A stretch of 64,000 nt of DNA. It comes from Clostridia bacterium. Its GTDB lineage: Bacteria; Bacillota; Clostridia; Oscillospirales; CAG-272. The stretch is taken from positions 48,936 through 112,935 of the forward strand of contig JAFVQU010000006.1 in assembly GCA_017504625.1 (NCBI GenBank), read 5' to 3'. Shown piece after piece: positions 20,474 to 56,901 of this stretch. Within the stretch, counting starts at the first letter, position 1. Every line of letters starts with the position of its first letter. Below the pieces are notes generated by a model. The model was not told the origin of the DNA. It made no database searches and worked only from the letters and a program-made list of their open reading frames with translations. The translations under genes and the position numbers were made by a program.

Positions 20474-21004
20474 CTAATTTATCACGGACAGCGCCGCCTT
20501 TTTTGCCGTCTTTGCGTCGGCAGAGATGATGAGCAGGACGTAGTTATGGCATACGTTTACCTCGGCGTTATCGATATAATTGGCGTATTTTTCCTCGCCC
20601 TTGACCGTCTTGACGGTATTTAAGCGGCGGTAGAGCAGTCGCGCGGTATCATCGGCGGTCACGGGAGTGTCGCAGAGGATGGCGACAATCTCGCATGGGT
20701 GCGCGGAGCTTGGCATAAAAAACGCGAAATCTATCCAGCCGTCAAAAAGTGAGATGTGCTTGCCCTCGCCGAAAAGTGAGCTTAGCAGCGAGTCGGGAAT
20801 ATAGCCGTCCTCACCCTCGTCTGCCGAACTTGAATATATCTTGCCTGCGGGGAGTCCTATCTCAATATCGGTAACGGCTTTCACGATGTCCTCGCAGGGA
20901 ACCGTCTTATCTGCGTGCGCGCAGGCGCAGAGAGAGAGCAGTGCGGCAAAAATCAGAAGAATTGCCGCAAAAAGCCTTGATTTTCGTTTGAAAAAGCGTT
21001 TCAT
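20474..21004 (-). CDS. Putative lipoprotein, DUF4358-like
   Basis: 176 aa. A basic N-terminus (MKRFFKRKSR) and hydrophobic helix end in LCACAH; Cys28 gives a plausible lipobox. The mature part begins with charged residues, and its overall pattern (short secreted domain, NYVLLIISADAKTAKKA near the C-terminus) resembles DUF4358 proteins of Clostridia. That family call is tentative and the function unknown. It lies downstream of rlmH but is separated from it by a terminator (21041-21072). Confidence 0.65.
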   Translation of the reverse strand: MKRFFKRKSRLFAAILLIFAALLSLCACAHADKTVPCEDIVKAVTDIEIGLPAGKIYSSSADEGEDGYIPDSLLSSLFGEGKHISLFDGWIDFAFFMPSSAHPCEIVAILCDTPVTADDTARLLYRRLNTVKTVKGEEKYANYIDNAEVNVCHNYVLLIISADAKTAKKAALSVIN

Positions 21005-54972: not shown

Positions 54973-55001
54973 TTGAAATCGCTTGCTTTATATGGTATAA
55001 T
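54973..55001 (+). promoter_or_regulatory. Promoter of hup
   Basis: TTGAAA (54973-54978), 17-bp spacer, TATAAT (54996-55001), with a leader of about 90 nt. Confidence 0.8.
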
Positions 55002-55099
55002 TAACTAAACAAAATAATCGTATCGGCGACAAAGGTGGTGCTTTTGCCCAACTTCTCGTCATACGGTGACAAAAATAAAAAAGAAAGAGGTTCTAAATT

Positions 55100-55375
55100 A
55101 TGAACAAGCTCCAGCTCACAGACGCACTTGCACAGAAGGCAGGCATGACAAAGGTTGACGCCGCTAAGGCAGTTAACGCAATTATCGAGGTTATCGGCGA
55201 CGCACTCGCAGCAGGCGATGACGTTAAGGTTACCGGCTTCGGCGCATTCGAGGTAAAGGAGAGAGCAGCAAGAACCGGTAGAAACCCCAAGACCGGTGAG
55301 GCAGTAGCTATCCCCGCTTCCAAGTACGTTGCTTTCAGCGCAGGTAGCCAGCTTAAGGACAAGGTTAACGGTTAA
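55100..55375 (+). CDS. hup: HU-family DNA-binding protein
   Basis: 91 aa. A typical HU: N-terminal dimerisation helices, GFGAFEVKERAARTGRNPKTGE at the base of the DNA-binding arm, and C-terminal VAFSAGSQLKDKVN. It bends and compacts DNA. A strong promoter and codon usage fit abundant expression. RqcP starts 11 bp after its stop. Confidence 0.97.
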   Translation: MNKLQLTDALAQKAGMTKVDAAKAVNAIIEVIGDALAAGDDVKVTGFGAFEVKERAARTGRNPKTGEAVAIPASKYVAFSAGSQLKDKVNG

Positions 55376-55386
55376 TTTTTAACCCG

Positions 55387-55629
55387 ATGCGACTTGACAA
55401 ATATCTTAAGGTTTCAAGGATCATAAAGAGAAGAACGGTGGCTAACGATGCGTGCGACGCAGCTCACGTTACCGTCAACGACAAGCCTGCCAAGGCGTCC
55501 TACGACGTCAAGGAGGGCGACGTTATCTGCGTCAGCTTCGGACAGAGAACGCTTAAAGTGAGAGTTCTCGACGTTCGCGAGCATGCCGCAAAGGCAGACG
55601 CGTCTTCGCTTTACGAGGTAATTGAATAA
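55387..55629 (+). CDS. rqcP: S4-domain RNA-binding protein RqcP (YabO)
   Basis: 80 aa. The S4 motif MRLDKYLKVSRIIKRRTVANDACDAAHVTVN occupies the N-terminal half in a helix-loop-strand pattern. RqcP acts with RqcH in adding alanine tails to stalled nascent chains in Firmicutes ribosome quality control. Sits between hup and the yabP hairpin. Confidence 0.92.
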   Translation: MRLDKYLKVSRIIKRRTVANDACDAAHVTVNDKPAKASYDVKEGDVICVSFGQRTLKVRVLDVREHAAKADASSLYEVIE

Positions 55630-55638
55630 TTAAAGATC

Positions 55639-55684
55639 CCTCCGCATAGAATGTACCGATCGGTACTTTATGCGGAGGTTTTTT
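55639..55684 (+). promoter_or_regulatory. Hairpin that sequesters the yabP ribosome-binding site and ends in a U-tract
   Basis: CCTCCGCATA (55639-55648) pairs with TATGCGGAGG (55669-55678); an inner palindrome GTACCGATCGGTAC (55653-55666) extends the stem. The 3' arm contains GGAGG of yabP, and T6 (55679-55684) lies directly before its ATG. So the element is both terminator-like and Shine-Dalgarno-masking. CATAGAAT (55645-55652) with ATA at 55626-55628 (16-bp gap) resembles a sigma-E promoter; its start point near 55659 would remove the 5' arm. Confidence 0.7.
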
Positions 55685-55969
55685 ATGGGCAATATTGACG
55701 TGGGCAAGGCGCATTCGTTTATCTCGCGGATGCGCGAGGGAATTGAGATAGAGGGAGTTTGCGACGTTATAAGCTTTGACGAGAGCGGCGTATCGCTTGA
55801 AACCGTGTGCGGAAATATGGCGATAGAGGGAGAAGGTCTGCACGTCACCGTGCTTGATATTACGAGCGGGCGCGTGGTGATCGAGGGCAGAATATCGGGA
55901 GCTTACTATTTTGACAGCAAGCCGACGGTCAAGCGCGGTCTGTTTGGCGGCGCGAGAAGATCGGACTGA
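55685..55969 (+). CDS. yabP: Spore cortex/coat-associated protein YabP
   Basis: 94 aa. YabP/YqfC-like small beta-rich protein (REGIEIEGVCDVISFDESGVSLETVCGNMAIEGEGLHV). In Bacillus it is needed for sporulation and is made in the mother cell. The ATG at 55685 has GGAGG 6 nt upstream, but that site lies in a hairpin arm (55639-55678). It is followed 7 bp later by yabQ. Confidence 0.9.
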   Translation: MGNIDVGKAHSFISRMREGIEIEGVCDVISFDESGVSLETVCGNMAIEGEGLHVTVLDITSGRVVIEGRISGAYYFDSKPTVKRGLFGGARRSD

Positions 55970-55976
55970 TAGCGGC

Positions 55977-56591
55977 ATGATTGATCTTGAGCAAAGCGTC
56001 GTCATTGAGCTTTATATCAAGGCGTTTCTTGTTGGAGTTGCCTTTGGCGTTCTTTACGACGTGATAAGATTTTTCAAGCTCATCATCGGAGTGAGGTACG
56101 GCGCGCAAGATGCGTACCTGCCCGAATCGAAGGCGAAAAGGGTGGCGGTCTACGTCGTAAGCTTTGTCACCGACACACTTTTCTGGCTTTTTATCGGTGT
56201 CGCGTCTGTGTTGCTTTTTTACAACGTCAGCGGCGGTGTTTTCCGCGGTAGCGTGTACCCTTGCCTGCTTTTCGGACTTGCGCTTTATTATTTTTCACTC
56301 GGCAGACTGACGCTTGCGCTCTCAAGGCGGCTGATCTCGCTTGTCCGCCGCGCTTTCTCTTTTCTCAGAAGGCTTGTTGCCGTGCCGCTTCGCGCCGCAA
56401 AAAGAGCGATTTTTCACGTTTATCACTTGACAATAGGCAAAATTATTGTTAAAATAAAGGGGAAGATAATCGCGGCGAAGGAAAGGCGGCGGTCGGCGGC
56501 AGAGCAGATCGCATCCTGCGCGGGAGAGGAGGAGCAAAACAGTGAAGACGAAGGACGGCCTTACAAAAAATACGGACGCATCAGCTTTTGA
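55977..56591 (+). CDS. yabQ: Spore cortex biosynthesis protein YabQ
   Basis: 204 aa. Four hydrophobic segments in the first about 125 residues (AFLVGVAFGVLYDVIRF and so on) are typical of YabQ, followed by a basic, probably cytoplasmic, C-terminal part. It is required for cortex formation. The start ATG 55977 has a weak ribosome-binding site, so coupling to yabP is likely. It overlaps divIC by 50 bp. Confidence 0.88.
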   Translation: MIDLEQSVVIELYIKAFLVGVAFGVLYDVIRFFKLIIGVRYGAQDAYLPESKAKRVAVYVVSFVTDTLFWLFIGVASVLLFYNVSGGVFRGSVYPCLLFGLALYYFSLGRLTLALSRRLISLVRRAFSFLRRLVAVPLRAAKRAIFHVYHLTIGKIIVKIKGKIIAAKERRRSAAEQIASCAGEEEQNSEDEGRPYKKYGRISF

Positions 56592-56901
56592 TGAGCCGTC
56601 GGGCTCGGTCAAGGGCGCGCTTAGGATCCCGTTCGTCAAGGTGATGCTCAGGGTAATTCCCGCTCTGCTCCTCGTGGCTTCTATCGGAATGTTTATCACG
56701 GGTATGATGAAATACGACGAGCTTGGCAGAAAAAAAGAGGAGCTTGAACGCCGTGTCGACGCGCTCGAATACGAGATAGACGAGCTTGAATTTCTGCTTG
56801 ACTGCCCGATAGATTACGATTATATCGTCCGCGTGGCGAGGGATAAGCTCGGACTGCATCTCCCCAACGAAATAGTATATTATAACGACGTAAACGATTA
56901 A
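56542..56901 (+). CDS. divIC: Septum formation initiator DivIC/FtsB
   Basis: 119 aa. A short cytoplasmic N-terminus, one TM helix (about 33-55) and a coiled coil (about 58-80, KKEELERRVDALEYEIDELE), then the CPIDYDYIVRVARDKLGL motif of the DivIC/FtsB family. It forms the divisome complex with FtsL and DivIB. It starts at GTG 56542 with GGAGG upstream, inside yabQ. Confidence 0.92.
   Translation: MKTKDGLTKNTDASAFDEPSGSVKGALRIPFVKVMLRVIPALLLVASIGMFITGMMKYDELGRKKEELERRVDALEYEIDELEFLLDCPIDYDYIVRVARDKLGLHLPNEIVYYNDVND

Follow-up and report, generated by a model that had tools for sequence, protein, structure and literature searches.

In phage T4, the long early transcripts of gene e (lysozyme) and I-TevI carry leaders that hide the ribosome-binding site (RBS); gene e is also transcribed from late promoters that adjoin the RBS, and these transcripts, missing the 5′ portion of the structure, are translated well (PMC3014915). 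In Bacillus subtilis, read-through RNA from spoIIG is proposed to be kept from translation at sigG (spoIIIG) by a large hairpin, which cannot form in RNA from the sigG promoter, PsigG (PMC5942855).

Here we describe a related arrangement at the hup–rqcP–yabP junction of a Clostridia bacterium from a group of uncultured gut Clostridia, within a 64,000-nt stretch of contig JAFVQU010000006.1 (hereafter, the window). As at T4 gene e and I-TevI, the RBS of the sporulation gene yabP would be hidden in a long transcript and freed by a nearby promoter.

Promoter and hairpin at the yabP junction

The genes of the junction were assigned by profile matches (Table 1). YabP and YabQ scored under the NCBIfam cut-offs and over the Pfam cut-offs, and the S4-domain gene is presumably RqcP/YabO, a name that we take from gene order. 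The sigma-70-type promoter before hup is the presumed source of the vegetative hup–rqcP transcript. The 55-nt gap between rqcP and yabP runs through CCTCC, CATAGAAT, a short loop, TATGCGGAGG and six T to the yabP ATG; a sequence-only reading had claimed that the 3′ arm of a hairpin here is the yabP Shine–Dalgarno sequence (SD) and that its U-tract touches the ATG, and both points are correct. Positions 55000–56000 gave no match at E ≤ 1 to Rfam models, which were searched for known leaders and riboswitches.

Table 1. Positions of genes and sequence elements around the hup–rqcP–yabP junction of the window.
Feature	Position	Strand	Remarks
Sigma-70-type promoter TTGAAA-17-TATAAT before hup	54973..55001	+	11/12 consensus matches; putatively active
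hup, HU-family DNA-binding protein	55100..55375	+	profile match
rqcP-like S4-domain gene	55387..55629	+	profile match
Sigma-E-type -35, GAATAAT	55624..55630	+	overlaps rqcP stop codon
Anti-SD, CCTCC	55639..55643	+	in promoter spacer, at base of 5′ arm
-10 element, CATAGAAT	55645..55652	+	within 5′ arm of hairpin
Lock hairpin	55639..55678	+	5′ arm 55639-55657, loop 55658-55661, 3′ arm 55662-55678
Predicted sigma-E transcript start	55659	+	placed from the -10 position, about 7 nt after the -10
yabP SD, GGAGG	55674..55678	+	in 3′ arm of hairpin
T tract, six T	55679..55684	+	U run after stem; also the spacer from SD to start codon
yabP, sporulation protein	55685..55969	+	profile match; ATG 55685-55687
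yabQ, spore cortex protein	55980..56591	+	profile match
Sigma-70-type promoter TTGACA-17-TAAAAT inside yabQ	56427..56455	+	11/12 matches; putatively active
divIC-like septum gene	56542..56901	+	profile match; GTG start

The sigma-E consensus combines a KMATATT -35 with a CATACAAT-like -10, 14–15 nt apart. GAATAAT-14-CATAGAAT matches this consensus at the required spacing: the -35 lies exactly 14 nt before the -10, with CCTCC inside that 14-nt spacer. The -10 had already been noticed in the 5′ arm, and the -35 is an addition to it. All 12 genomes of the genus have a GAATAAY -35, a spacer of exactly 14 nt, a CATA-type -10 and a paired GGAGG. GAATAAT is retained even in G002 and G006 (L033, L041), where rqcP stops in a different frame (CTGAATAATTGA), so conservation seemingly acts on the DNA motif itself rather than on codons. 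By our own sigma-E score, which is built on the same consensus, 123 of 143 rqcP–yabP junctions reached at least 9, compared with 3.2% of shuffled segments, and the best sigma-E-like pair was spaced 14 nt in 131 of 144. The genome encodes SigE (344.5 bits against the NF006158 cut-off of 339; 323.7 for TIGR02835, under the cut-off of 348.6), and the SpoIIGA gene adjoins the SigE gene.

RNA of positions 55630–55687 is predicted to fold at −28 kcal/mol, compared with −9.3 kcal/mol for shuffles (z −7.9; none of 200 as good), with the yabP GGAGG paired to the CCTCC of the promoter spacer and a 2-nt bulge in the 5′ arm. Of the 57 automatically called genes of the window, yabP has the RBS that is costliest to open (14.4 kcal/mol; median 2.6). 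The anti-SD lies 5′ of the -10, and thus the 5′ arm lies upstream of the predicted start of yabP's own transcript. A transcript from about 55659 had been expected to lack this arm and free the site, and folding predictions agree: the cost to open the SD falls from 14.5 kcal/mol in RNA from rqcP to 1.6 kcal/mol in RNA from about 55659, whose fold is no more stable than that of shuffles (z 0.23). Some genomes have a predicted fold in the short RNA as well (L032, 5.5 kcal/mol; L207, 13.7 kcal/mol), and for G002 even the long RNA is predicted to leave the SD open 20% of the time. The sequence-only reading had further called the hairpin a terminator, which stands in part: a stable stem with six U directly after it underlies this putative label, and a simple terminator scan did not list the hairpin.

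The sigma-70-like promoter in yabQ sits about 90 nt 5′ of divIC. Were read-through blocked at yabP, divIC would need another promoter, and this one could serve it.

Conservation and co-evolution of the hairpin arms

The sequence-only reading had staked itself on conservation of the hairpin, which is kept in all 12 genomes of the genus. For a wider comparison, 247 loci with an rqcP match were reduced to 197 with yabP next, 168 distinct, 167 with a start and 144 testable junctions, 23 being dropped for lack of a usable SD or promoter position or for a gap of more than 130 nt. Each junction was compared with shuffles in which SD and promoter were fixed and the rest was shuffled, keeping base composition and not dinucleotides. 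The yabP SD was significantly buried (p ≤ 0.05) in 73 of 144 junctions, 38 of which beat all 100 shuffles. Mean SD opening was 7.8 kcal/mol in real junctions, 4.0 in shuffled ones and 2.6 in RNA from the sigma-E start. In a test common to all genes of the operon, 75/144 yabP sites were buried at p ≤ 0.05, compared with 0/97 for rqcP, 4/71 for hup and 2/12 for yabQ. The spore gene yqfC, whose product belongs to the same protein family as YabP, was buried in none of the 11 genus genomes scored, the remaining one having no recognised SD.

Under a strict rule for calling a lock (opening of at least 8 kcal/mol, p ≤ 0.05, arm upstream), which was set after the first junction results had been seen, 10/12 junctions were locked in the genus, 45/106 in the family and 6/38 in others; the locked family junctions span 28 of 52 genera. 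Over half of the family's junctions are thus unlocked by this rule, and numerous relatives whose gene order is the same manage without a lock. The anti-SD arm extends no further than the first base of the -10 in 61 of 73 significant junctions versus 30 of 67 non-significant ones, and its commonest end point is 2 nt before that base (29/73 significant junctions).

The two arms also change together. With one junction per genus (n = 52), yabP arms paired with their own partners at −11.2 kcal/mol and with partners swapped among genera at −7.9 kcal/mol (0/500 permutations), the compared sequences being related and collapse by genus reducing, not removing, the effect of kinship. The same test on all 142 junctions gave z −15.6, and arms from spoIVA, described below, behaved likewise (own −9.3, swapped −7.2 kcal/mol; n = 70, 0/500 permutations). 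In some genera, for example at L168 and L143, the stems are quite different and pairing is long. Such co-evolution between genera favours an RNA structure over a fixed DNA operator.

A similar layout at spoIVA and other candidate sites

Upstream of spoIVA, eight of the 12 genus genomes (L315, L296–L301, L303) have the same promoter-in-lock layout, with none of 100 shuffles as buried: CCTCC, ACTCC or CCTCT lies directly 5′ of CATATA(A/T)T, and GGGAGG precedes the start. In G002 and G006 the promoter is present and the lock absent. The neighbouring gene upstream was profiled in three loci, namely an ABC transporter gene in G000 and murA in G005, both co-directional, and radA in G006, in the opposite direction; elsewhere, orientation was assigned from longest ORFs and codon scores. 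G003 and G007 (L307, L309) have a co-directional neighbour yet no strong lock, which speaks against a strict rule. By eye, L307 and L309 contain a GC-rich hairpin, GCCGCC-GTTC-GGGCGG, between -10 and SD, inside the transcript.

The hypothesis that neighbour orientation matters was recorded after the pattern had been seen in the genus and before the family-wide set was assembled (115 loci, 104 distinct analysed). By longest ORF, the lock was present at 18/47 co-directional, 0/18 divergent and 16/39 ambiguous loci (p = 0.0014). Codon scores gave 22/51 co-directional and 2/20 divergent loci (p = 0.011), with 33 ambiguous loci (10 locked) counted in neither class; for both locked divergent loci, the class was set by an ORF more than 1 kb upstream. 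No lock was found at 29 of the 51 co-directional loci. Locks were present at 20/35 co-directional loci within 250 nt of the neighbour and at 2/16 beyond, a limit chosen after the codon-score result. Collapsed by genus, 14/25 co-directional and 1/16 divergent cases were locked (p = 0.002). In the seven genera with both clear orientations, none of nine divergent loci was locked; at least one co-directional locus was locked in four (g1, g5, g67 and g68) and none in g22, g52 and g76. A lock found mainly behind a co-directional gene is expected of a guard against read-through.

A strict search of the genome itself for CTCC-CATANNNT-GGAG gave 11 matches and no excess over the reversed control (13). 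Among nine distinct sites, a start within 20 nt followed by an ORF of more than 41 aa was found only at yabP (94 aa) and spoIVA (492 aa). Two other sporulation genes were considered as candidates: spoIIIAA was dropped because the start of its profile match differs from the gene start, and spoIID was set aside, having just weak matches in two of the 12 genus genomes. In G000 (L331), an ordinary hairpin and T run, seen by eye, stand before the spoIIIAA leader, with no lock.

A further site in the window precedes a 176-aa gene at 20474-21004 (−), with CATAGAAT and CCTC...GAGG directly before the start. Its opening energy is 10.2 kcal/mol (0/40 shuffles as high), and a good sigma-E -35 is absent. 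The gene lies behind a SPOUT methyltransferase gene and a terminator-like hairpin; its product has a secreted or lipoprotein-like start by eye and no Pfam match.

Interpretation and relation to known systems

We consider it highly probable that selection maintains the yabP hairpin as an RNA lock, bypassed by the sigma-E promoter embedded in it. RNA copied through from hup–rqcP would fold, with GGAGG sequestered by CCTCC, and many read-through transcripts should additionally end, in the genus, at the U run that follows the stem. Through SD pairing and termination, we propose, no YabP would be made during growth. In sporulating cells, sigma-E RNA polymerase would use GAATAAT-14-CATAGAAT, a promoter whose spacer and -10 double as the DNA that encodes the 5′ arm; RNA begun at about 55659 would be without the anti-SD arm and would be translated. 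About 60 bp would then combine the roles of a promoter, of a lock on the ribosome site and, at this junction, of a terminator. Alongside the computed features (sequence, conservation, predicted fold, arm co-evolution and the spoIVA neighbour association), we infer the start site, read-through, termination and translation levels of this model.

The hairpin might merely be the intrinsic terminator of hup–rqcP, its overlap with the yabP RBS being a by-product of tight spacing. This would account for the six U after the stem and for T-rich tails (at least five T in eight), which occur at 10/10 locked junctions in the genus, and at 20/34 locked versus 6/69 unlocked spoIVA sites; since a terminator would likewise be retained only behind co-directional genes, the spoIVA result fails to distinguish between the two readings. 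Outside the genus, however, arms pair with the SD at locked yabP junctions though just 11 of 41 have a T-rich tail, and a plain terminator, free to sit anywhere in the gap (compare that before spoIIIAA in L331), need not end at the SD. We regard this explanation as unlikely. As 30 of those 41 junctions are without a T-rich tail, RBS hiding and not termination is the shared feature, with termination probably added in the genus and at many spoIVA sites.

A near-perfect repeat over the -10, with a core invariant in the genus, could also be the DNA operator of a sporulation regulator that overlaps the sigma-E promoter. Between genera, however, the arm sequence shifts with complementarity kept and loops vary, as suits an RNA rather than a fixed site for a protein, and at spoIVA the presence of the repeat tracks the direction of the upstream gene; an operator is thus very improbable. 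As for chance complementarity between an SD-like GGAGG and C-rich promoter spacers, any GGAGG can pair with CCTCC, and the strict motif search in the genome gave no excess. Against this stand the shuffles in which SD, promoter and composition were preserved, the swapped-arm permutations and the other RBSs of the operon; with relatedness incompletely corrected, they leave us giving chance almost no credence. The interpretation of the yabP hairpin as a lock is supported, with a putative start at about 55659 and two proposed expression states.

The comparative evidence points to spore genes lying among growth genes that are guarded from accidental expression by hairpins which the developmental promoter bypasses. 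It is conceivable, if a little short of probable, that promoter-embedded RBS locks are a general form of insulation in these Clostridia, selection placing an anti-SD arm in the sigma-E promoter spacer of any mother-cell gene that comes to sit directly behind a co-directional growth gene, and the arm being lost when the neighbour turns; the type of RNA polymerase that starts a message would then decide whether it can be translated. Such a rule predicts lock-bearing spore genes from sequence, lends itself to testing in one genome after another and proposes sigma-E starts in uncultured bacteria.

A search of open-access literature by titles and abstract openings found no report of such a lock at yabP or spoIVA. 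The T4 leaders serve a phage late sigma factor and a phage time course, whereas the yabP lock involves a sporulation sigma factor, a U run in the genus and retention at a second gene in step with neighbour direction. The sigG read-through hairpin, reportedly first described by Sun et al. in 1991, concerns a sigma-F/G gene preceded by another sporulation operon; here, growth genes precede genes of sigma-E type and, unlike at sigG, the promoter spacer and -10 form the arm itself, in a layout that recurs at yabP and spoIVA in many genera. Intrinsic (Rho-independent) terminators resemble the genus hairpin in having a U run behind a stable stem, but here the 3′ arm is the SD, the U run extends up to the start codon, and most locked junctions outside the genus are without the T-rich tail. 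The logic of an RBS lock on read-through RNA is known; what sets the present case apart is its use at sigma-E-type genes, the promoter spacer and -10 as the arm, the optional termination, the recurrence across genera and the association with neighbour direction.
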